A stretch of DNA of 64,000 nucleotides from an uncultured Planctomycetaceae bacterium (GTDB lineage: Bacteria; Planctomycetota; Planctomycetia; Planctomycetales; Planctomycetaceae), in NCBI GenBank assembly GCA_903858815.1, contig CAIOKE010000133.1:248001-312000 (forward strand), given 5' to 3'. Positions 4,358 to 27,061 of the stretch are shown here, in pieces. A program made the translations under genes and the position numbers. Each line of letters begins with the position of its first letter. Positions within the stretch are counted from its first letter, which is position 1. The notes under the pieces were generated by a model that was given only the letters and a program-made list of their open reading frames with translations, was not told the origin of the DNA and did not search any database.

Positions 4358-6802
4358 TCACTTCAACAGATCATCCAACAGTCGGTTCTTCAGCAGGCGT
4401 TTCGTCTCTTCCATCAACCGCTGCTGCTCCTCAGACAACTGCTTCAGGTCCCGCAGCGCCTCATGAAATTCCGCCAGATCGCGAACATTATCCAGAATGC
4501 CTCGAAGTGCAGTGATCACGGCAGACAACTGACTTTCAGACTGTGCTATCAGCTGAGCTGTCGGCTGTCGTTCCATCGCAGCCCCTCGAAACGCAGCAAT
4601 GGCCCGATCCACCTGGGGCAGAGAAGTATCACGGACCTGCTTCAGTGGATCCACAATTCCCGCCTGCATCGTCTCTGCGTTATGCAGCGGAATGGCGTTA
4701 TTCACCAGTTGCCGCACAATTTCCTCAAATGATTCAATGATTGCATTCAGTTCGTTTGCCTGCCTTCGCAGAGAATTCCCCGATCGGCTGCCACACGTCA
4801 GCAGACTGGCCAGATCGGTCTCAACCGCAGCACCGCCGGCAGCCTCCGTCCGCAAAGCGACCTGCTGATGCAACTGCAGATCCCTGCGAATGTCCTCCAA
4901 CTGCCCCAGTACCTCTTCAAATCGAGTTCGCAGAGCAATTTCACGAGTATACAGAATGGACAATAACTCATCGTCGCTGACGATCTGAAAAGCCAGCGGT
5001 GTACTGCGAGTCGTCCCGGGCTGAGGCGAAGGATTCGCATCCGCCGCGACCACCGAAACAGTCAACGACTGTCCTTCAGACAACTCCAATGGCTGCACTT
5101 CAAAGAATTCGTACTGTTCGTCAGCCGAGCGGTTGAGACTGAAATCCGTGCTGCCGGGCTGCGGACCTGCCCGAAAATTCCGAGGACGCCATCCAGTCTC
5201 GTCATCCACCTGAAACTCAAAGCGAGCCGACTGCAGGCCGTAGTCGTCCCGCAGGCGTCCGGCGACCGGTATACGAGCACGTTTCGTGATGGAGTTGCTG
5301 ATTCCGGTCATCTGAGCAACCACGACGGGTGGAAGATCACGAACACCAGCAATTCGCAGCGTTTCCGGGCTGGCAGATTTCACATCATCCGTATCATGCA
5401 GCGCGAATCTGAGACTGGTATTCGGCAGTATCAACAGCCTGCTGTCTACGGCGATGGGATTCGGCATGGCTGAGTCACCCGGTGATGCTCCGGCGGAAGC
5501 AATTTCTGACTGAGCTGTTGTCAGTAGCTGGAATCCCGCGTTAATTGTCACTCCATCAGCGGCGATCAGAGGTGAATCGATTTTTAAAGGCTGACGATCG
5601 TCATAAAACACCACCTGGCTGCCAACACGATCACCCTCAATGACAAATCGCTCCGTCAGGATCCGCGCCGACTGCAGCGGCTTTGCCGATCGGGCTGCCA
5701 GCTGAAAAGCCGTTCCTTCCGGCAGCGGCAACTCACTGCCCGTCACGGTAATGTCCGCCTCACGCAATTGATTCCAGCCCGTGTATTCAGGGTATATGCA
5801 CCGCAGACGAATACTGTCGAGACCAGGGACATCCACAACCTCGACCAGCCACGGCTGCAGGTTGCGAAAATCGCCAGCCAGAACCTCAATCCGCACGGGT
5901 TCGCGCAGCTGGGTCACAAAAAAACGAAAACGACGATTACCAGCAGAGGTCACCCAGGCCCGACTGCGACTGCCATCCTCACGAATCACATCCACTCGAA
6001 TTCTGTCCGGGACAACCCATTCTCGCCCCGTAGATGCATCCAGTTCTGGTACCGAAAACTCAAGTTCCAGATCCGCCGAACGCGGATGCCGATAGACCAG
6101 CGAACCAACTCGGTCGTCCAACGAGCGAAATTCCACACGTCGGTCATCAGGTTGAGCAATTGCAGATACCTGCAGCAAAGTCGTCCGCTGCCAGTAGATT
6201 TCCTGACACAGCACAAATGCCTTCCACCAGCGCTGCGGCAGTCGTGGATTCACCAGCGAAGGAATCAGGATTGAGCACAGCAGGACTGCTGACGTCAGCC
6301 CCATACGTCGCAGTCGTCGGGTGTCGAACAGGTCGGATTCGTGCACATCGCGAGCCTGCAGTTCGGCCTGCTGGACGGCACGTCGCAGCATTTCCATCGA
6401 CAATGGCCCATCGATCGGCAGGCCTGTTGAAGATTCGACTGCTGTTACCAGCCGATCCTGAAACTGCGGAAATCGTCGCTCCAGCAACAGTGCCACATCA
6501 CGATCACCAATCGATCGCAGCAGTGGCCGCAGCACACGCCGCGAAATCAGAACCAGCAGCACCGGCACCAGCAGGACCAGAAACAGCGATCGCAGCTCAA
6601 CCGGAAGTTCCAGTCGCTGCAATTGAAACCAGCCCAGATCGATCCCCAGCGTGCCCCAGAACAGTGCCGCGAAACCGCAGGTTACCGACAGGACGCCAGC
6701 CAGCAGAGCGTCCCGCCGCAGTCGCGAACGAACGCGTGCCAGCAGACCGCGAATGGCTGGCGGCAGATCGATGCGGGCAACAGCAGGCGTCGTGGAGGAC
6801 AT
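4358..6802 (-). CDS. DUF4175-like large membrane protein
   Basis: The 814-aa product starts at ATG 6802-6800. The N-terminus holds two or three membrane helices (about residues 33-55, 70-90, 160-180) with conserved-looking VALLLERRFPQFQDRLVTAVE between them. This is the pattern of DUF4175-type proteins, in which a short membrane anchor precedes a long extracytoplasmic domain. The middle (about 200-620) is beta-rich and resembles the Ig-like part of that family. The C-terminus (about 625-814) is a long helical region with many L/Q/E. First gene of a four-gene operon; its TGA lies next to the start of the downstream coiled-coil gene. Probable envelope function; biochemical role unknown. Confidence 0.7.
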   Translation of the reverse strand: MSSTTPAVARIDLPPAIRGLLARVRSRLRRDALLAGVLSVTCGFAALFWGTLGIDLGWFQLQRLELPVELRSLFLVLLVPVLLVLISRRVLRPLLRSIGDRDVALLLERRFPQFQDRLVTAVESSTGLPIDGPLSMEMLRRAVQQAELQARDVHESDLFDTRRLRRMGLTSAVLLCSILIPSLVNPRLPQRWWKAFVLCQEIYWQRTTLLQVSAIAQPDDRRVEFRSLDDRVGSLVYRHPRSADLELEFSVPELDASTGREWVVPDRIRVDVIREDGSRSRAWVTSAGNRRFRFFVTQLREPVRIEVLAGDFRNLQPWLVEVVDVPGLDSIRLRCIYPEYTGWNQLREADITVTGSELPLPEGTAFQLAARSAKPLQSARILTERFVIEGDRVGSQVVFYDDRQPLKIDSPLIAADGVTINAGFQLLTTAQSEIASAGASPGDSAMPNPIAVDSRLLILPNTSLRFALHDTDDVKSASPETLRIAGVRDLPPVVVAQMTGISNSITKRARIPVAGRLRDDYGLQSARFEFQVDDETGWRPRNFRAGPQPGSTDFSLNRSADEQYEFFEVQPLELSEGQSLTVSVVAADANPSPQPGTTRSTPLAFQIVSDDELLSILYTREIALRTRFEEVLGQLEDIRRDLQLHQQVALRTEAAGGAAVETDLASLLTCGSRSGNSLRRQANELNAIIESFEEIVRQLVNNAIPLHNAETMQAGIVDPLKQVRDTSLPQVDRAIAAFRGAAMERQPTAQLIAQSESQLSAVITALRGILDNVRDLAEFHEALRDLKQLSEEQQRLMEETKRLLKNRLLDDLLK

Positions 6803-7104
6803 GCAGAAAACCTGATCGTGAGGACCGCCTGGAGGAAATGAATTACCAGAGGCTATGATATGACGATCAGCAGTCTAGCGGTCGGAACGCCAGTGCTGTA
6901 GGCCGAAGCCGAATTTCCGAGGGAATCACGAAAATCTCGCTCCCTCAAATTCGCTCTTTCACGCTGGGACAAGCGTCGGTGGCCTGGTACCCGAGTGACT
7001 GCTGTGTTACCCTGTGTCGTTTTTCCGCTGCTCAGTTGCATCTCCGGCACTCTTCGCAGCAGACACTCTGTTCACCGACCTGCTCAGACCAGAACCGATA
7101 ACCG
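6803..7104. other. Divergent intergenic region
   Basis: A 302-bp gap between the minus-strand DUF4175-like operon and plus-strand guaA. It must carry both promoters, but I could not pick a convincing -35/-10 pair. No ORF, hairpin or purine-riboswitch-like fold was evident. Confidence 0.5.
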
Positions 7105-8712
7105 ATGTCAGGCAACGCAAATCCCGGCACTATTTCCGTTTCCAATGGTCCGACCGCCCCGGGTGCCACCGGCGAACTGGTGCTGGTCATGGATTTTGGC
7201 TCTCAAACCGCCCAGTTGATCGCTCGTCGGGTCCGCGATCAGAACGTTTTCTGCCAGATCGTCCGCCATGACCTCAGTGCCCAGAGAATCCGCCAACTGG
7301 CCCCTCGCGGCCTGATCCTTTCCGGCGGTCCCGCCAGTGTCTACGGCGACGGTTCACCCAAAGTCGACCCCGCCATATTTCAGCTGGGTATCCCCATCCT
7401 TGGTATCTGCTACGGCATGCAGCTCACCTGTTACACGCTCGGTGGTCGCATCCTGCCAGCTCACTCCCGCGAATTCGGACGGGCTCCGTGTTCACAGCTT
7501 TCCGAATCCGATTCGCTGCTGTTTCAGGGGCTACCCACAACCTTTACCGCGTGGATGAGCCACGGTGATCAGGTAGAATCTCTGACGGGTGATTTCAAGG
7601 CAATAGCGTCAACCGCAACGTGCCCGAATGCCGCCGTGCGGCATCGTGATCTGCCAATCTACGGGCTGCAGTTCCATCCGGAAGTCACACACACCGAATT
7701 TGGTGGCCAGTTGCTGGCGAACTTCGTGCGGAATATCTGCGGTTGTCAGGGCACATGGCAGATCAGTTCCCTGATTGAACAGCAGAAGCAGCTGATTCGG
7801 CAGCGTGTCGGCAGCGACCGAGTCATCTGCGGGCTTTCCGGCGGTGTGGATTCTGCCGTCACAGCCGCTTTAATCTCTGCCGCTATCGGTGACCAGTTGT
7901 CCTGCATCTTCGTGGACAATGGTCTGCTGCGCAAGGGCGAACGCCAGGATGTGGAAGAGCAGTTCACACAGCATTTCAAAACAGACCTGCATGTCGTTGA
8001 TGCGTCCCGGAGATTTCTGACCGAACTGGCAGATGTCACCGATCCGCAGCGCAAACGAAAAATCATCGGCAAAGCATTCATCGATGTCTTTCGAGATGAA
8101 GCTCGTTCGATTCCGAACGCCCGCTTCCTGGCCCAGGGGACACTGTATCCCGATGTCATCGAAAGCGGAGCAAATCCGGACGGACCTGCAGCCACAATCA
8201 AGTCGCACCACAACGTGGGTGGACTGCCCGCTGAACTGGGTTTCGAACTGATTGAGCCTCTGCGTGATCTGTTCAAGGACGAAGTTCGAAGGATGGGAGT
8301 TGAACTGGGGCTGCCTGAAAAAATGGTCTGGCGGCATCCGTTCCCCGGACCGGGACTTGCCGTTCGCTGCCTGGGCGCAGTTGCCGAGGACCGTCTGCGG
8401 ATCCTGCGGGAAGCCGATGCAATTCTGATTGAAGAACTGCATGCTGCCGGATTGTATCGCCAGATCCAGCAGGCGTTTGTCGTGCTGCTGCCCGTGCAGT
8501 CTGTCGGTGTCATGGGGGATGACCGCACCTATGAAAATACGGCTGCAATCCGTGCCGTACAGACCGAAGACTTCATGACGGCCGACTGGTTCCATTTCCC
8601 CTGGGATGTACTCGGACGCATCTCCACACGCATCATCAATTCCGTGCGTGGGATCAATCGAGTGGTCTATGATGTCAGCTCAAAACCGCCGGCCACCATT
8701 GAATGGGAATAG
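7105..8712 (+). CDS. guaA: GMP synthase (glutamine-hydrolysing)
   Basis: This enzyme converts XMP, ATP and glutamine to GMP in the cytoplasm. The 535-aa length is normal for the family. The class I glutamine amidotransferase domain has [18 protein letters not shown], the nucleophile in LGICYGMQL and the catalytic His-Glu in FHPEVTH. The ATP pyrophosphatase domain carries [10 protein letters not shown], and the C-terminal dimerisation domain contains the characteristic [18 protein letters not shown] and ends KPPATIEWE. About 25 residues precede the usual start of the family, so an internal start is possible, but ATG 7105 is the only good upstream candidate. The last 10 bp overlap the downstream cinA gene in another frame, which suggests translational coupling. 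Confidence 0.97.
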
Positions 8713-18935: not shown

Positions 18936-20546
18936 TCAACCGCGGTAACTGCTGCCCTGCCCCTCCAGCACACAGCGAGCCGCATGATAACCCGGAATTC
19001 CGCTGATCGCACCACCCCGGACCGCACTGGAACCCGCCAGATAAATGCCCGGCCACTCTGTCTCTACCCCACGTCCCCCAGCCGCTGCCACATCGTCCGT
19101 GAAGAACCACGACGGCTGATTGTGGAAGATATTGCCACGGTCGAGATCAAGTTCGTGCTGCAGATCCTGCGGTGTGTGAATTTCCAGGCACATCGAACCA
19201 TTGGCGTCACGCGCCAGACAATCCTGAATTGGCTCTGCACACAACCGATTCAACCCGTCAAGATAACGTGACAGTACCAACTGACGTCGCTGATCATGCG
19301 ATTCTTCAAATAATCGCCACGGCATATCCAGACCAAACAGTGTCAGCGTGTGAAAACCAGCAGCCTGCAGCGCCGGCGATAGTATCGAGGGATCCGTCAG
19401 AGTATGACAATAGATTTCCCCCGGAGCCGGATCCGGAATCTGCCCGGCCGCAGCCAGTCGATATGAATCCAGCATCTGGGCATACCCCTCATCAATATGC
19501 AGTGTCCCAGCAAACGCATCCTGTGCGGAAACATCACGATCTTTCAGTCGTGGCAGTCGCTGCAGCAGCATATTGATCTTGATCACCGATCCTTCGTCGC
19601 GATCCGCTGCCTGCCATGTCTGCCCCAGCAGGCTGGCCGTCGTACGAGGCCCGGCATTCAGCAGCACCGCCCCCGCATCAATTCCATACTCCCGTCCCTC
19701 ATGCAGCCAGGTCACGCGATGCCACTTCGTCCCCGGCTCAACACGAACTGCGGGCGACTCCGTATACAGTTCCACGCCAGCTTCCATACAACGCTGCATC
19801 AGGGCACCGGTCAGAGATCTCATGCCACCCTCAGGAACACGCCATTCGCCCGTGCCGTTGCCACAGATGTGATACAGGAAACAGCGGTTCTGCAGCAGAT
19901 CTGCATCATGTGGTCCCGCCAGAACCCCGATCTTCCCGTCCGTCATCACAAGCCCGCGAACCGTATCCGTAAGGAGATATCGCTCAATCGCCTCACCCAG
20001 CGGACGCTCGACAAAACCATCCCATGCCTCGCACTGCTCCTTCGTCCGCAGCTGCTGCTGAAACTGTTGTCGGGTCTGCAACGGCTGCAGGAACGAGGGA
20101 GCGATCAACGCCGCCAGTTCTGACTGCAGTGCAGTGAACTTCAGATATCCCCGCCACTCCTCAGCCCCCCCGGGCAATTCCTCCATCGATTCCCGTGACC
20201 TCTGCTGATCGTCCGGAAACAGCAGCAGCCCTCGCTGTCGGCCCCGCGCGTCGTGCCACGGTGTGTATGACGAAACACGACGCCGCAAAGTACGAAAATT
20301 CAGCCGCAGATCACCGACAATCTGATCCGGCAGCAGCGACACCAGGTACGAATATCTTGACAGCCACGCTTCATAGTCCGGAAAGACCTGCCGGGAAATC
20401 GTTGCACCCCCGAACTGGCTGCCACGTTCCAGTACCAGCACCGATTTACCGGCTGCCGCCAGATACGCCGCTGCAATCAAACCATTGTGACCACTACCCA
20501 CAATGACGACATCCCGCGATCCGCTCACCGGCTGCATCTGTTTCAT
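18936..20546 (-). CDS. FAD-dependent CrtI/PYROXD2-like oxidoreductase
   Basis: The ATG at 20546 has AGGCGG nearby and places the dinucleotide-binding motif at the usual distance from the start (VVIVGSGHNGLIAAAYLAAA, then LVLERG and GGA). The longer frame from 20624 would overlap the upstream gene. The 536-aa length fits the phytoene desaturase/all-trans-retinol saturase/PYROXD2 group, and the C-terminal FAD motif is visible as GIYLAGSSAVRGGAISGIPG. Planctomycetes make carotenoids and this group includes carotenoid desaturases, but the sequence looks closer to PYROXD2-like proteins of uncertain substrate. It follows the OstA-like gene by 34 bp in the same run. Confidence 0.85.
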   Translation of the reverse strand: MKQMQPVSGSRDVVIVGSGHNGLIAAAYLAAAGKSVLVLERGSQFGGATISRQVFPDYEAWLSRYSYLVSLLPDQIVGDLRLNFRTLRRRVSSYTPWHDARGRQRGLLLFPDDQQRSRESMEELPGGAEEWRGYLKFTALQSELAALIAPSFLQPLQTRQQFQQQLRTKEQCEAWDGFVERPLGEAIERYLLTDTVRGLVMTDGKIGVLAGPHDADLLQNRCFLYHICGNGTGEWRVPEGGMRSLTGALMQRCMEAGVELYTESPAVRVEPGTKWHRVTWLHEGREYGIDAGAVLLNAGPRTTASLLGQTWQAADRDEGSVIKINMLLQRLPRLKDRDVSAQDAFAGTLHIDEGYAQMLDSYRLAAAGQIPDPAPGEIYCHTLTDPSILSPALQAAGFHTLTLFGLDMPWRLFEESHDQRRQLVLSRYLDGLNRLCAEPIQDCLARDANGSMCLEIHTPQDLQHELDLDRGNIFHNQPSWFFTDDVAAAGGRGVETEWPGIYLAGSSAVRGGAISGIPGYHAARCVLEGQGSSYRG

Positions 20547-20580
20547 ACATTCCGCCTGACAGGGAACGTCGCCACCAATG

Positions 20581-23500
20581 TCACAGCCCCCCCGAAGTCT
20601 GGACTCCGGTGATCTGATTGGCATTCAGATAATTACGATCCGAGTAATACTCAAAGCGACGACCGGTCAGCACCTGCGGCTGGCCATTGTTTGGCAGATA
20701 GGTGACTTTCGCCTGCCGTCCCTCTTCCGCCCGCAGAATATACTGCTGCTTGGCATGGTCGTACGTGATTTTGTCTGCATCACCTGAAAACAGCCGAGAC
20801 TCCAGACGACACGGGGCTCGAGTCCCTCCACCACCACCGGCCGCATTGGATTCGGCCACCAGCGAAAAGGAACGCGCCTGATCACCACCACCTGCTGTCA
20901 GCGAAACTGTCAGGTTCTCACACCCCATTAATCCCGTCTGGTCCGGCAACTCAGAAACACTCAATCGCTCCAGACTGATCTTCTCATCCAGTGATCGCAC
21001 CGGCCCGAATACTCCCCGCACATGCTGCCGCAACCGCACAAAATTCGCCTGCTGACTGCCATCCAGTGTCCCGATAAAAGTCGCCCTGACGTACACGAAC
21101 GCCTGATCCGGTTCACTGACCGGTGTATTGGCTCTTGCTACTGCAGCCCGCGAAACTGCCAGTCGACCGCTGGAATCAGGTTGTACAGTTTCCGCATAGC
21201 CCGGACCTGTACCACGAAACTGCCCGCTCGCATATTCAAACTCAAAATCGGCAAACTCCGCGAAATGCCGGGCTGTCACAACGCCACCCGTCAGCATCTC
21301 TGCCTTCACCTGCACTCGCCCCTCACACTCAATTCGCTCGATACCCGGACGTCGCTGCTCAGCCGACTCATCAATCACCGCAGAGACCACTTCAATTTCT
21401 CGCCCCGCCGCAGGCTGCTCAACACGCACCGCCTCACCGAAATGCACGATCATACCCGCACATGTCAGCTCCACATCAAAATCTGTCTCGTTATCCAGTA
21501 CCGCTCGCACGTTCCCCGTGAATCGGGCCGTGCGCTCAGCAAACGACATCTTCTCATTCCAGTAGATATCCAATGGAGCAGGTCGAGCCAGCGGTTTACC
21601 ATCAAGCCCGCGATCCACAATAAAGCGAATCCGACCACTCCCGCGAACCTCGGCTTCACGCCGGGCAGCCTGCAGCGGAGATATCAGCTCATTCAGATCG
21701 ATTCGCGGACCATCGATACGATCTGAAACCCGAATGACGCTGGCCGGGTCGCCAAACAACATGATCCTTCGACTACCGTCAAATCCAGCCGCAGCATGCA
21801 ACGATTTCCCCTCCGCCGTGAAGTTCTCCGACTCCCGCTCGCCCCGGTGAGTCACAGCGACGCTGCCACGCAGCCAAAGATCCTCAAATCGAACCCGACT
21901 GGTCGCAGAAGTTCGCAGCCTCGTCTCAACTGCATCACAGAAGAACTTTGTCTTCCCGGATTGCCCCGCACCCAGTGGGGGAGCAGGCAGACCAGTCACC
22001 GCAGTGTCCACTGTTTGTGTTCCCGCTGCGGTCGCGTCGTAGGGAACGCCAGACTGCTGCTCTGCACCCGCTGCAGACTCCGGCTCAAATTCCACCAGCA
22101 GCGATTCCCGAGCATTGCCCGTCAATTGAGGTGAATCCAGCCGAACATCCCCCACAGCACGCAACTGCCGCGGACCTCGCAGCGCCGGACTTGCTGTGCC
22201 TGCCACCGACTCACTGCTGCCATGCATCGTCAGAGCAATTTCATTTGCAGCCAGCGACAGCTGCTGCGGACGCCAACCCACCTGCGCCTGCCCCGTCAGC
22301 AGCAGTACATCCTGTTCAGTACGCGTCAGCTGCAGGGATGTTTCCCACTTTGCTGTTACCGCTTCACGATCGATTGCAGCATTTGCTGCTTCTCCCGCAG
22401 GCAGTTCCGGAGGCTCCAGCTGACCGGGGCCCGAACACTGCAGCATTCGCAGCTGGCTGCGCACATCGAGTATTGCCACCACGGCCGGCGCAGTCAGACG
22501 ACGACCCTGATGTTCCACAGTGACCGGAGCAGCCGGACCAGCCGGACCAACCGGCCGCCCTGTCAGATCCAGACGACGTTCATCTATCTGGTAAACGAGG
22601 CGGCTCATTGATGCGGTAATCTGCTTCGATTCGGAACGAAACAGCACTCGGCGCCCGTCGGCGGCGATTGACACCGCCGCCAGCTTCTGACTACTGCCCT
22701 TGTCCTGCGGGTCCCGCTCCTGACGCCGCAGCTGCAGGACCAGTCGCGAACAGAACAGACGATCACGACTGCCATCCTCCTGAGGCTGCTCGACAAGTAC
22801 CTGATTGTCCGGACGCAGTTCTCGATCAACAAAACCTGAAAAAGTACACTCCTGGGTGGGCACGTAGTATTCGAAGCCATTGGCCGCCGAAATCTGCAGC
22901 TGCACAGGCTTTTCCGTTGTCGCCTGTTCCCTGAAGGACAGACTGCAGTTCACTCGCCCCAGCAGACGTACGCGACGAATATCCGAGACCGTCATCAGCC
23001 CCCGCTCCTCGGGATCCCCGACCGCCGCCAGCTCAATCTCTACCCCACCCTCAGCCGTACCCGTGTGCTCCTCCCAGCCAAATCGCACCGGCTCACTGGA
23101 CCAGATTCGCAGTGAATCCTCTTCGAAATAGAATGTGCGACCTTCGATTCTGAGTCCCTGCGGTCCTTCAATACGTACTTCACCCGCCAGCAGACCTGAT
23201 GTGATCTTCCCGAACTGACCCGCTCCCAGCGACAAGGCAGAAGAACAGGCAAAGCTGGCAGACTCCGCCACCGCTGTAATCGGAGCCTCTTCGTCTTCAC
23301 TGCCCTGCCAGACCATGGCAACCGGGCTGACACGAATCGATCGATTTTCATTCAGCAGTTCATGCTGGTCAAAAAACAGCAGCCGACTGCCGTCACGAAA
23401 TCGACTGTTGGCCTTCCGGACCCATTCATGCTGGGGCAGCCAGCGACTGGCCGAAGCGGCAAAAACCGGTGACGACTTTTCCACTGCCGCCGGCTGTGCC

Positions 23501-23631
23501 TTCGCAATCTGCGGACTGCGATTCACAGTCAGCAGTGGTCGCGTGATCTGAGAATACAGCAGATACAGCGCAGACAGGCCGACCGCTGCCAGCAGCGTTC
23601 GTGAATTCCTGGGTAAGTCGCTCAGTGCCAT
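20581..23631 (-). CDS. Large OstA/LptA-like envelope protein (putative LPS transport)
   Basis: The 1016-aa product starts at ATG 23631. An N-terminal membrane helix (about residues 11-28, TLLAAVGLSALYLLYSQI) anchors a very long periplasmic part made of beta-rich repeats. Several stretches have the OstA/LptA flavour: ESASFACSSALSLGAGQ, VRIEGPQGLRIEGRTFYF, GKSLHAAAGFDGSRRIMLFG, and the C-terminal DADKITYDHAKQQYILRAEE, which is the typical DGDxIxYD... motif of LptA/LptD N-terminal domains. Gene order supports this: it lies 35 bp after kdsD, and in Escherichia coli kdsD precedes lptC and lptA. It may combine an LptC-like anchor with several LptA-like modules. Function inferred, not proven. Confidence 0.65.
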   Translation of the reverse strand: MALSDLPRNSRTLLAAVGLSALYLLYSQITRPLLTVNRSPQIAKAQPAAVEKSSPVFAASASRWLPQHEWVRKANSRFRDGSRLLFFDQHELLNENRSIRVSPVAMVWQGSEDEEAPITAVAESASFACSSALSLGAGQFGKITSGLLAGEVRIEGPQGLRIEGRTFYFEEDSLRIWSSEPVRFGWEEHTGTAEGGVEIELAAVGDPEERGLMTVSDIRRVRLLGRVNCSLSFREQATTEKPVQLQISAANGFEYYVPTQECTFSGFVDRELRPDNQVLVEQPQEDGSRDRLFCSRLVLQLRRQERDPQDKGSSQKLAAVSIAADGRRVLFRSESKQITASMSRLVYQIDERRLDLTGRPVGPAGPAAPVTVEHQGRRLTAPAVVAILDVRSQLRMLQCSGPGQLEPPELPAGEAANAAIDREAVTAKWETSLQLTRTEQDVLLLTGQAQVGWRPQQLSLAANEIALTMHGSSESVAGTASPALRGPRQLRAVGDVRLDSPQLTGNARESLLVEFEPESAAGAEQQSGVPYDATAAGTQTVDTAVTGLPAPPLGAGQSGKTKFFCDAVETRLRTSATSRVRFEDLWLRGSVAVTHRGERESENFTAEGKSLHAAAGFDGSRRIMLFGDPASVIRVSDRIDGPRIDLNELISPLQAARREAEVRGSGRIRFIVDRGLDGKPLARPAPLDIYWNEKMSFAERTARFTGNVRAVLDNETDFDVELTCAGMIVHFGEAVRVEQPAAGREIEVVSAVIDESAEQRRPGIERIECEGRVQVKAEMLTGGVVTARHFAEFADFEFEYASGQFRGTGPGYAETVQPDSSGRLAVSRAAVARANTPVSEPDQAFVYVRATFIGTLDGSQQANFVRLRQHVRGVFGPVRSLDEKISLERLSVSELPDQTGLMGCENLTVSLTAGGGDQARSFSLVAESNAAGGGGGTRAPCRLESRLFSGDADKITYDHAKQQYILRAEEGRQAKVTYLPNNGQPQVLTGRRFEYYSDRNYLNANQITGVQTSGGL

Positions 23632-23666
23632 CCGTCGCTCTGTCCACTCTCAATCATACAACCCGT

Positions 23667-24740
23667 TCACGCAGCCCGTCGCTGATGATCGTCCACCGTC
23701 GGCCTTACCTCAGTTTCGTCAACTCGTCCCAGCACATCCGTGATGTCCAGCAGTCCCAGCGGAATCCTGCGTTCATCAATTACGGGCAATTCACTCAGCT
23801 TGCGTTCCGACATCAGATGAATGGCCTCCGGCAGCAGGACACCAGGAGCAATCGTGATCGGATTGCGAGTCATAACCAGCTCGATCGCCTCGTCCAGGTG
23901 TTCATCGCGGCGAGTCTCGAACAGCCGTGCCAGGTCACTGTCCGTAAACAGCCCTGTCAGACGTCCTTCAGCATTCACCAGCAACACGGCACCACTGCGA
24001 CGTCCCGGACGACTCAGCTGAATCATCACTTCACGGACGGTCTGTGACTGCTGAGCAATCCGAATCTCTGATCCCTGCCGCATCACTTCACGCACCGGGC
24101 ACAGTTGACGACCCAGACTGCCGGCCGGATGAAACTTTGAAAAATGCTCCGCAGTAAAACCCCGCGCGTGGCTGGTCACCAAAGCCAGTGCATCGCCCAG
24201 AGCCAGCATGGCTGTCGTGGAACAGCTCGGAGCCAGAGCCAGCGGACCAGCTTCCCGATGGCGACCGATCGACAGAACCACCTCGGCAGCACGTGCCAGA
24301 GCATTCCGATCGTCGCGAGTGATCGCCATCATCGGCACACCCTGCTGACGCAGAGGCATAATCAGCCCCAAAAGCTCCTCTGTTTCACCACTGTTCGACA
24401 ATGCCACCACAAGATCATGAACTCCCACACTGCCCAGATCACCGTGTCGAGCTTCTGTCGGATGCAGAAAATGTGAGCGAGTCCCTGTGCTGGAAAATGT
24501 CGCTGACAACTTTCGACCAATCAGCCCGGCTTTGCCAACCCCGGTCACAACCACACTGCCGGTGCAGCGCAGGATCAGACGAACAGCCTCACAGAAACGG
24601 CGATCAAGTCCATCGGCAACCTGCCGCAGCACGTCGGCCTCCTGATGGACAATCAACCGTGCCTCACGCAGCAGATCATGATCCTCAGGGGGCCCCGAGC
24701 CATACCACGCAGACAGGGAATTTCCGGAATGAGCATTCAT
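23667..24740 (-). CDS. kdsD: Arabinose-5-phosphate isomerase, KpsF/GutQ family
   Basis: This enzyme interconverts ribulose-5-phosphate and arabinose-5-phosphate, the first step toward Kdo of lipopolysaccharide. The 357-aa length is close to that of the family. The SIS domain is clear: VVVTGVGKAGLIGRKLSATF, STGTRSHFLHPTEARHGDLG, VVALSNSGETEELLGLI and the family-typical FSKFHPAGSLGRQL. Two CBS domains follow (about 218-275 and 285-345). AGGATGACGCC precedes the ATG. Its downstream neighbour is the OstA-like protein, so the pair may link Kdo synthesis with LPS transport. The C-terminal tail is somewhat longer and more basic than usual. Confidence 0.92.
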   Translation of the reverse strand: MNAHSGNSLSAWYGSGPPEDHDLLREARLIVHQEADVLRQVADGLDRRFCEAVRLILRCTGSVVVTGVGKAGLIGRKLSATFSSTGTRSHFLHPTEARHGDLGSVGVHDLVVALSNSGETEELLGLIMPLRQQGVPMMAITRDDRNALARAAEVVLSIGRHREAGPLALAPSCSTTAMLALGDALALVTSHARGFTAEHFSKFHPAGSLGRQLCPVREVMRQGSEIRIAQQSQTVREVMIQLSRPGRRSGAVLLVNAEGRLTGLFTDSDLARLFETRRDEHLDEAIELVMTRNPITIAPGVLLPEAIHLMSERKLSELPVIDERRIPLGLLDITDVLGRVDETEVRPTVDDHQRRAA

Positions 24741-24916: not shown

Positions 24917-27061
24917 TCACAAGCGAATTAATTGCAGCAGATTTGAGTAATCGTCGGTCCAGACAACTCGCGATGTCGCCGGTAAAGGTGCCTGAGCAGA
25001 CTCAAACAGCTCATGCTGCAGCGTCTCCGGACGCTCAGACATCAGAGTCCACAGACTCCCGGATCCAGACGGCAGGCGCTGGCCTGTCGCCGGATCCGAC
25101 TCCGCCTTCTTCAACAGCGATATACTCGTCATACCGGTCGTTGCAGCCACCCCCTCTGTCACACGTCGCAAATCCAGATGCAGATTGGAAATGTGAATCG
25201 CCAGGATCCCACCCGGTGCCAGATGCCTGCGGCAAAGTTCCACCGCTTCACGAGTCAGTAGATGAGTTGGCACGGCATCCCCGGAAAATGCATCCAGCAC
25301 CAGCAACTGATACTGCTGAGGCGACTGGGCCTCCAGCTGCAGTCGCGCGTCTCCGGAGATGACCTGAATCGTGGCTGCCGAATCGGACAGAAACCGAAAC
25401 TGTTCCCGAGCCAGCGTGATGACACCCGGATCAATCTCGTAAAATGTGAACTGATCTCCCGCACGGCCGTACGCCGCCAGCGTACCAGTGCCAAGGCCCA
25501 CCAGTCCGGCTTTCAGCGACTGCCCTTCGGCCAGCGCCCGCTCTCGCAGCACAGCTATGGCCTTCGCTACACCCGTCTCATACCCGTAATACGTTGTCGG
25601 AACCGAAGGTCGCCTGCGAAACTGCAGCCCATGAGTGATCCGACCGTGCACCAGAACAGTCGCGTCTTCCACGCTGTCATACTCCACCTCCAGCACACCA
25701 TAGAAAGTCCTGCGCACTGCCGTACATTTCAGCCACGCACTGACCGAGGCCACTGTAGTCGTCAGGATGGAAACAATCAGCAGTATGGCAACCCCTGCAG
25801 CCGGAAGAGGAGGCCTGCGAATCGTGAGCCAACCGCGTTCGCCAAACCAGACGCCAATCGCCAGTAGTGCTGCCGACAGCATCGCCAGGTCATGCTCCCA
25901 GTACTGCGGCAGCAGCAGCGGCGCCAGCACACCAACGACAATACCACCACAGGCCCCTCCGGCTGCGGTGGTCAGGTAAAACAGCGTCAGGTGCTCTGCT
26001 GCCGGACGCTGTCGTGCCAGCTCCCCGTGACACAGCATGAAGACAGCAGAAAGGCTGCCAAACCAGACCAATAACTGAACCAGCAGCGGCAACTGAGCAC
26101 CCAAAGTCTGTACATAACACAGAATCAGCAGCAGCAGAGCACTGATCTGACACCACCACCGCCTCACATACCAGCGATCACTTTCGAAACACAGAATGAA
26201 TGACAGCAGATACAGTGCCAGTGGTATCACCCATAAAAACGGGACCACCGCAACGTCCTGACAGATCTGAGCTGTCTCCGCCAGCAAAAGTACTGTCGCC
26301 AGACATGACAAACCAAACCACACACCCCGCTGCGACCATGTGATTCCAGTCGCTGCCCCCGGCCCCTGCAATTTGGCTGCTCGTCCGGAGTCGAACTCAG
26401 ACACAACACGGCTCAGTCCTGTCAGCAGTACTCCTGAACAGCACGCCGAAAATACAAGAAAGACAATCTGCCAGAGCCGAGTCTGCTGAGACAGAGGCAG
26501 CAATGGCTCGATAACAAATGGGTAACTCACCAGAGCCAGCAAAGAACCGGCATTCGAAAGAGCATACAGTCGATGCGGCGAACCTCCCGGACTCAGCTCG
26601 GCAAACCACGACAGCAGCAGGGGACCGGTGGTACTCAGGACAAAATAGGGCAGCCCAACTGTGGTCAGCAGCAACCAAAGAATCTGCAGCACCGGAGTAT
26701 CCCCGATATCGGCTGCTGAAACGGGGGCCGGAGCAATTCGCAGCAGCAGGCAGGCCACCAGCAGCAGAATTGTGTGCAACCCAGCCTGCTGACGTCGCGA
26801 AAGACGCGAAACAAGCAGATGGGAATAAAGATAGCCCCCGAACAGCAGCGTCTGGAAAAACAGCATGCACGTCGTCCAGACCGCCGAAGCACCGCCGAAT
26901 GTCGGCAACAGCAGCCTGCTGATCAATGGCTGAATCTGAAATAACAGAAAAGCACTGAGGAACACTGTTCCTGCCAGCACCATCGGGACAGCCCGTTGCA
27001 GCCCGGAAAGTATCTGCCTGTCAACCATGTAGTGACTCTGCTGAGTTTCTGCATCAGACAC
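24917..27061 (-). CDS. Fused polytopic membrane and spermidine synthase-like protein
   Basis: The frame begins at GTG 27061, with ATG 27028 as an alternative (703 aa); neither has a strong ribosome binding site. About 12 to 14 hydrophobic segments fill residues 20-440, beginning with LAGTVFLSAFLLFQIQPLIS, a motif found in many fused MFS/spermidine synthase proteins. The C-terminal 240 residues form a Rossmann methyltransferase-like domain: AGLVGLGTGTLAAYG, FYEIDPGVITLAREQFRFL, VISGDARLQL and LLVLDAFSGDAVPTHLL. The acidic residue of LVLDAFSGD sits where polyamine synthases bind substrate. The real substrate of these fusions is unknown. It is divergent from the thioredoxin-PDZ gene. Confidence 0.85.
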   Translation of the reverse strand: MSDAETQQSHYMVDRQILSGLQRAVPMVLAGTVFLSAFLLFQIQPLISRLLLPTFGGASAVWTTCMLFFQTLLFGGYLYSHLLVSRLSRRQQAGLHTILLLVACLLLRIAPAPVSAADIGDTPVLQILWLLLTTVGLPYFVLSTTGPLLLSWFAELSPGGSPHRLYALSNAGSLLALVSYPFVIEPLLPLSQQTRLWQIVFLVFSACCSGVLLTGLSRVVSEFDSGRAAKLQGPGAATGITWSQRGVWFGLSCLATVLLLAETAQICQDVAVVPFLWVIPLALYLLSFILCFESDRWYVRRWWCQISALLLLILCYVQTLGAQLPLLVQLLVWFGSLSAVFMLCHGELARQRPAAEHLTLFYLTTAAGGACGGIVVGVLAPLLLPQYWEHDLAMLSAALLAIGVWFGERGWLTIRRPPLPAAGVAILLIVSILTTTVASVSAWLKCTAVRRTFYGVLEVEYDSVEDATVLVHGRITHGLQFRRRPSVPTTYYGYETGVAKAIAVLRERALAEGQSLKAGLVGLGTGTLAAYGRAGDQFTFYEIDPGVITLAREQFRFLSDSAATIQVISGDARLQLEAQSPQQYQLLVLDAFSGDAVPTHLLTREAVELCRRHLAPGGILAIHISNLHLDLRRVTEGVAATTGMTSISLLKKAESDPATGQRLPSGSGSLWTLMSERPETLQHELFESAQAPLPATSRVVWTDDYSNLLQLIRL

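Follow-up and report, generated by a model that had tools for sequence, protein, structure and literature searches.

In Escherichia coli (NC_000913), the genes kdsD, kdsC, lptC, lptA and lptB follow each other in this order; LptC and LptA are separate proteins, of 191 and 185 amino acids (aa) respectively, the former carrying a hydrophobic helix at its N-terminus. Within the Planctomycetes-Verrucomicrobia-Chlamydiae group, the Lpt pathway of lipopolysaccharide (LPS) transport is likewise found in Methylacidiphilum (Verrucomicrobia), where each of LptA and LptC is a protein of its own and their locus tags follow one another (PMC10542722); two OstA proteins of about 200 aa have been described in diderm Firmicutes (PMC5007114). 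In planctomycetes, an article whose text does not mention lptA or lptC reported LptD and BamA from every genome published by then (PMC3422733), and a study from whose main text the term "lpt" is absent found nearly all the lipid A genes of P. limnophila to be essential (PMC10632474). Among the literature matches listed, no paper points, by its title or the start of its abstract, to a planctomycete LptA or LptC, or to a fusion of the two (subscription papers, preprints and automatic database annotation lie outside the coverage). Here we describe a locus from an uncultured Planctomycetaceae bacterium (contig CAIOKE010000133.1, positions 248,001 to 312,000), a stretch of 64,000 nucleotides (nt) hereafter called the window, in which a kdsD-type gene is directly followed by the gene for a 1016-aa protein, the giant protein. 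The latter is probably a fused and lengthened LptC-LptA, which would serve as the bridge for LPS across the periplasm, a function suggested by its gene neighborhood and by its relationship to known Lpt proteins.

Conservation of the kdsD-giant gene pair

Both genes lie on the minus strand, as open reading frames (ORFs) exactly as an earlier note on this DNA had described them. The upstream one (23667..24740), of 357 aa, contains a SIS domain and two CBS stretches and encodes a kdsD-type arabinose-5-phosphate isomerase of the KpsF/GutQ family, scoring 251.6 bits with TIGR00393 (cut-off 203.7); the ORF stays under the cut-off of PRK10892, the KdsD equivalog (270.3 against 505). After a gap of 35 nt (23632..23666) comes the ORF of the giant protein (20581..23631), described as LptC-LptA-like (OstA) on the basis of the ORF itself, of its family profile, of LptA matches in the PDB and of colinearity with proteins of sister classes. 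The two ORFs likely form a single transcription unit; in the loci of the same class where no kdsC is found in between, the gap ranges from -44 to 265 nt.

Relatives of the giant protein were searched in 392 genomes of the phylum. The single sequence detected them in 36, all among the 40 genomes of the same class; a profile search, based on an alignment of 36 family members (A1), detected them in 121, including all 40 genomes of the class and 81 outside it, and recovered G167, G274, G339 and G377, which the single sequence had missed. Of the 40 same-class genomes, 32 supplied rows of A1: L043, L055 and L063, being near-duplicates, and L072 were left out, as were four class genomes found later. 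Family members are mostly 960–1100 aa long, with lengths of 1229 and 1392 aa also occurring, and one of 853 aa being cut by a contig edge. In all 36 of them the most hydrophobic segment of 19 residues is N-terminal, when compared to everything from residue 111 on, and its mean hydropathy is at least 1.3 in 34. In the window protein the predicted helix spans aa 12-30 (23542..23598, minus strand), with a hydropathy maximum of 1.44 (at aa 12) that exceeds every value from residue 111 to the end; it is presumed to be an inner-membrane anchor, like that of LptC.

Gene surroundings were fetched in the 39 other genomes of the class, 38 of which held a giant ORF, and genes were considered adjacent when located on the same strand with a gap of -200 to 1500 nt. 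Of these 38 loci, 37 have kdsD directly upstream in the same orientation, so that the pairing is not a chance one; the single exception starts at a contig edge. Two loci are affected by contig ends: L061 begins at a contig edge and L072 is a contig-end fragment. Of four named relatives, three (L031, L032 and L034) have enough upstream DNA, and kdsD lies there in all three.

In nine loci of the class, kdsC is found between kdsD and the giant, and in both cases scanned (L064 and L070) this intervening gene passes TIGR01670, the KdsC model. The parallel with the E. coli gene order, proposed in the earlier note, turned out to be closer than claimed, since the order kdsD-kdsC-X is present in three families of the class of the window and in sister classes. 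In the ancestor of the class the order was probably kdsD-kdsC-giant, and kdsC would have been lost from between the two other genes in the family to which the window belongs. As in the E. coli cluster, kdsD (in many relatives kdsC too) directly precedes, on the same strand, a putative LptC/LptA coding region, whose product features an N-terminal hydrophobic helix followed by a predicted jellyroll. In contrast to E. coli, where LptC and LptA are distinct, a single chain here combines an LptC-like module with several LptA-like ones, and lptB is located on another contig.

Outside the class, 22 loci were hand-picked, not drawn at random, from the 81 genomes with matches, most of them high-scoring and spread over families. 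One of them, L126, matched in the genome search and was not recovered by the ORF search; in 15 of the remaining 21, kdsD or kdsC lies just upstream of the giant, or in 16, if L118 is included, where kdsC overlaps by 209 nt. In L124, from another class, a 710-aa frame (5889-8021), perhaps simply an over-long open frame, holds a kdsC match just before the giant, and the locus has no kdsD match.

Relationship of the family to LptC and LptA

Taken alone, the window protein scores 18.1 bits with PF03968 at aa 942-998, below the cut-off of 20.4, and 13.4 bits with the LptA model TIGR03002 (cut-off 71.7); no LptC match, either with TIGR04409 or PF06835, was found at E ≤ 1, nor did a phmmer search against the PDB produce any match at E ≤ 10. 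When the 36 family members are scanned one by one (E ≤ 1), 28 match PF03968, with a best E of 5.8e-10, and 8 match PF06835, with a best E of 0.0025; the place of the PF03968 match varies among members, being for instance 268-397 in L041 and 880-942 in L064. Searched against all PDB sequences, the family profile gives nine matches at E ≤ 10, eight of which are LptA or LptH; the best is 8onu (E 0.0013), and the matches fall in two separate parts of the profile. The OstA assignment is sub-threshold for the single protein, which could not by itself have proved it, and secure at the level of the family.

Sister classes offer a more direct comparison. Here the family profile matches, among others, proteins of 635–807 aa, sited after kdsD and kdsC. 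Three of them, of the 635–658-aa type (L119, L122 and L129), were scanned in NCBIfam, and all pass the cut-offs for both LptC and LptA: TIGR04409, near the N-terminus, scores 51.5, 71.6 and 62.1 bits (cut-off 38), and TIGR03002 scores 126.1, 72.1 and 101.3 bits, over 3, 2 and 4 stretches, respectively. Pfam gives a similar picture: of ten giants scanned, seven pass the PF03968 cut-off and four that of PF06835; L126 passes both, with 61.4 bits for LptC and 28.2 bits for LptD_N. When aligned by hhalign to seven such fusions (alignment A4: L119, L121, L122, L123, L127, L128 and L129), the window family is colinear with them over 494 columns (profile columns 68-762), with probability 99.5 and E 1.7e-22. 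These fusions and the window protein share the place after kdsD-kdsC, the N-terminal helix, the colinearity and the succession of LptC and then LptA modules; the fusions differ in length, 635–807 aa, and the three scanned in NCBIfam pass equivalog cut-offs for LptA and LptC. The passing of both cut-offs and the colinear alignment support the suggestion, made in the earlier note, that the giant unites LptC and repeated LptA modules. With LptA (TIGR03002, PF03968) and LptC (TIGR04409, PF06835) themselves, the giant has in common the profile relationship, the LptC-then-LptA order and the fold of the part modelled, differing in length (1016 aa, against 191 + 185 aa in E. coli) and in remaining under the curated cut-offs.

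In L119, L122 and L129 the fusion is followed, on its 3' side, by a gene which by eye is glycerophosphodiester phosphodiesterase-like, and then by a uroporphyrinogen methyltransferase-like one. Short relatives are found in other planctomycete classes, one of 343 aa directly after kdsC (L148:8433-9464), the other of 369 aa (L149:5178-6287), so that the number of modules varies widely; over the phylum, OstA proteins beside kdsD or kdsC range from 343 to 1392 aa.

The layout of the window protein was derived by cutting one LptC and three LptA segments from A4 and aligning each to the window family by hhalign, repeats being allowed; module residue numbers are accurate to a few residues. The LptC segment maps to one place, the LptA segments to three to five. 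By these profile alignments, the protein is composed of one LptC-like module, followed by three clear and two weak LptA-like ones, all encoded on the minus strand. The LptC-like module occupies about aa 64-205 (23017..23442; E 6.1e-7, the next best place being at 0.035). The first clear LptA/OstA module, about aa 246-405 (22417..22896), is aligned with E 4.9e-11 and lies inside the confident part of the structural model described below. It is followed by a weak OstA-like module, about aa 423-506 (22114..22365), reaching only E 0.0011, and by a weaker OstA-like one, about aa 552-667 (21631..21978), with E 2.8e-5. The second clear LptA/OstA module, about aa 685-781 (21289..21579), has E 6.6e-8; for its first part, about aa 685-740, E is 3.1e-9, and PDB LptA matches fall at profile positions 667-713. 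The C-terminal LptA/OstA module, about aa 847-1007 (20611..21093), is aligned to the three LptA segments with E values of 1.3e-6 to 3.8e-6; the sub-threshold PF03968 trace falls within it, where the best LptA segment has E 1.7e-6. Among controls, the reversed alignment gave a best E of 0.15 and 20 column shuffles a best E of 0.11; for the LptC segment, 20 shuffled controls gave 0.21 or worse.

Predicted fold, partner genes and competing explanations

A model of the full-length protein, obtained from five sequences, was poor, with a predicted local distance difference test (pLDDT) score of 39.4, and Foldseek analysis of this low-confidence model returned Rhs and other beta proteins mixed with LptA, LptC and LptD. 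For aa 80-410, a stretch exceeding one LptA in length, the mean pLDDT was 72.6 and the predicted template modelling score 0.72, the model being good from about aa 145 and featuring 28 strands in 331 aa; confidence is low for aa 64-145, within the LptC-like module. In a Foldseek search of the PDB with this part, LptH, LptA and LptC occupy the first 14 rows, all at probability 1.00, with E ≤ 0.001 in only two rows. VIA-align proposes the LptD N-domain at Z 13.8 (3.1 Å over 159 residues), LptA (2r1a) at Z 12.1 (2.4 Å over 129) and the LptC of LptBFGC at Z 11.1 (3.4 Å over 143). Unrelated proteins score up to Z 8.6 (MORN1), followed by OspA mutants (7.0-7.7) and junctophilin (7.3), so that only rows at Z 10-14 were taken as meaningful. 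For about aa 145-410 the model thus predicts the Lpt beta-jellyroll fold; the lack of an OstA-like fold, which the earlier note would have taken as a refutation, is therefore not what this region shows, and its other refuting outcome, the absence of all further Lpt and Kdo genes, did not come about either.

Other genes of the Lpt, 3-deoxy-D-manno-octulosonic acid (Kdo) and lipid A pathways are present in the genome. Of 64 matches to LptB, one is above the cut-off (303.6 against 240), on a contig different from that of the giant. Two PF03739 proteins, candidate LptF and LptG, score 179 and 91.2 bits, above the Pfam cut-off. KdsA (334.2 against 314), the WaaA N-domain (193.6 against 23.9) and LpxC (273 against 27) are also found. 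An LptD homologue, with an open frame of 1052 aa, lies on contig C283 (L164:8103-11237); it shares 45% identity, across 969 residues, with the LptD of a same-family relative, a protein which passes PF04453 and PF03968. The homologue itself has no PF04453, PF03968 or NCBIfam match and would probably go without a name if annotated with these models. Most of the partners listed in the earlier note were recovered, kdsB being the one not located: a partial E. coli KdsB query gave no convincing match in the fetched stretches of the genome. The same is true, in these stretches, for kdsC, the KdsC query reaching only 6e-5 with part of a 648-aa frame. LptA and LptC, the two parts which the giant would replace, are the two components of the Lpt pathway that were sought and not found, as genes of their own, by family model.

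The giant might alternatively be a long LptC-type anchor, working together with separate, diverged LptA subunits, its additional modules serving only to lengthen the bridge. The Verrucomicrobia, a sister phylum, do have separate LptC and LptA (Mfum_1153 and Mfum_1152; PMC10542722), and a separate LptA could have been missed, as the whole-genome PF03968 search fails to detect even the giant, and the LptD homologue has no match to this model. Indeed, whole-genome Pfam searches with PF03968, PF06835 and PF04453 gave no match at all, and, as the same models also miss the LptD of this genome, the lack of LptA and LptC matches is weak evidence for their absence. We regard this explanation as unlikely, however, because the family profile matches only the giant in this genome (scores having been computed for just 2 of the 10 first-look candidates), because three LptA-like modules, each with E ≤ 2e-6, are contained within one chain, and because in sister classes the fused chain itself passes the LptA equivalog cut-off.

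PF03968 also describes the N-terminal domain of LptD; this, together with LptD N-domains heading the VIA-align rows and LptD being listed by Foldseek for the low-confidence full model, might suggest an LptD-like outer-membrane translocon. Such an identity is highly improbable: a distinct LptD homologue is encoded on another contig, PF04453, the C-terminal barrel of LptD, matches none of the 36 family members at E ≤ 1 (a model insensitive in this group), and the giant features an N-terminal hydrophobic helix and aligns to LptC at its N-terminus. Equally improbable is a periplasm-spanning jellyroll carrier of another lipid, with an AsmA/TamB-like role and sharing the fold only, since, although a groove fold by itself leaves the cargo undefined, the matches are to Lpt proteins, the gene adjoins the Kdo gene kdsD and often kdsC, no AsmA-type Pfam match occurs in the 36 members at E ≤ 1 and no AsmA-type protein is among the structure-list rows shown, which by itself does not exclude them. 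TamB is a long-chain periplasmic lipid bridge which differs from the giant in fold and cargo. LetB similarly builds a lipid path into long chains across the periplasm, and also differs in fold and cargo (PMC8667587).

A number of observations weigh against a fused LptC-LptA. The window protein on its own stays under every curated LptA and LptC cut-off, and with LptA or LptC of E. coli as single sequences hhalign assigns the family probabilities of only 3.3 and 1.3, respectively. Of nine class members scanned separately for PF03968 (E ≤ 0.1), five are above the cut-off and one below, three having no match; three of the six giants scanned in NCBIfam (L116, L132 and L148) remain below both the LptA and the LptC cut-off. 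Five of the 21 loci outside the class (L116, L117, L120, L125 and L149) have no kdsD or kdsC nearby. The full-length model being poor, the fold past about aa 410 rests on sequence profiles. Finally, both LptF/G proteins are under their equivalog cut-offs, and separate LptA or LptC genes might exist, given the weakness of a negative Pfam result where LptD is missed too.

As for the genes surrounding the pair, a FAD-dependent CrtI/CrtO-like oxidoreductase is encoded at 18936-20624 (minus strand), and the last 44 nt of the giant gene lie within its longest ORF; of the loci fetched, only L032 and L034 have such a gene next to the pair. Upstream of kdsD, at 24917-27061 (minus strand), lies the gene for a fused membrane/spermidine-synthase-like protein, which scores 78.8 bits with NF037959 against a cut-off of 40.

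Proposed role and significance

As a fused LptC-LptA bridge, the giant would be anchored by its N-terminal helix in the inner membrane, beside LptB2FG, and the first module (aa ~64-205) would stand in for LptC, docking to this complex and taking LPS from it. The LptA-like beta-jellyroll modules, three clear and two weak, would substitute for the string of separate LptA subunits, stacking into a continuous groove, binding the lipid and passing it along to the N-terminal jellyroll of LptD, to which the far end would dock. Co-transcription with kdsD, whose product makes the Kdo precursor, would tie the supply of Kdo-LPS to its export, as the E. coli cluster does. As a purely arithmetical estimate, two strands per rung, rungs 0.48 nm apart and the strand density of the model (28 per 331 aa) would give a bridge of roughly 15–19 nm, depending on whether one counts the 760 aa that fall within modules or all 944 aa between the start of the first and the end of the last; this is of the order of the width of the periplasm.

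The planctomycete periplasm can be greatly enlarged (PMC5394234). A bolder proposal, to which we give somewhat less than an even chance, is that a single covalent chain bridges the whole periplasm between LptB2FG and LptD by itself, acting both as a slide for LPS and as a ruler fixing where the membranes meet. The number of modules would then have grown and shrunk within the phylum along with the width of the envelope, and the bridge would be inherited as one gene, with no assembly of LptA copies.

Whether planctomycetes have an LPS-containing outer membrane, a question on which the earlier note expected this locus to bear, has already been addressed in the literature (PMC3422733, PMC10632474) and is in this sense out of date; the interest of the locus lies in the architecture. 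A fused LptC-LptA may account for the apparent gaps in the LPS transport set of planctomycetes; if this is true, the Lpt pathway would have been restructured, not lost, in these bacteria. The giant protein would then represent a natural one-chain LPS bridge, in which the relation between bridge length and membrane spacing becomes testable.

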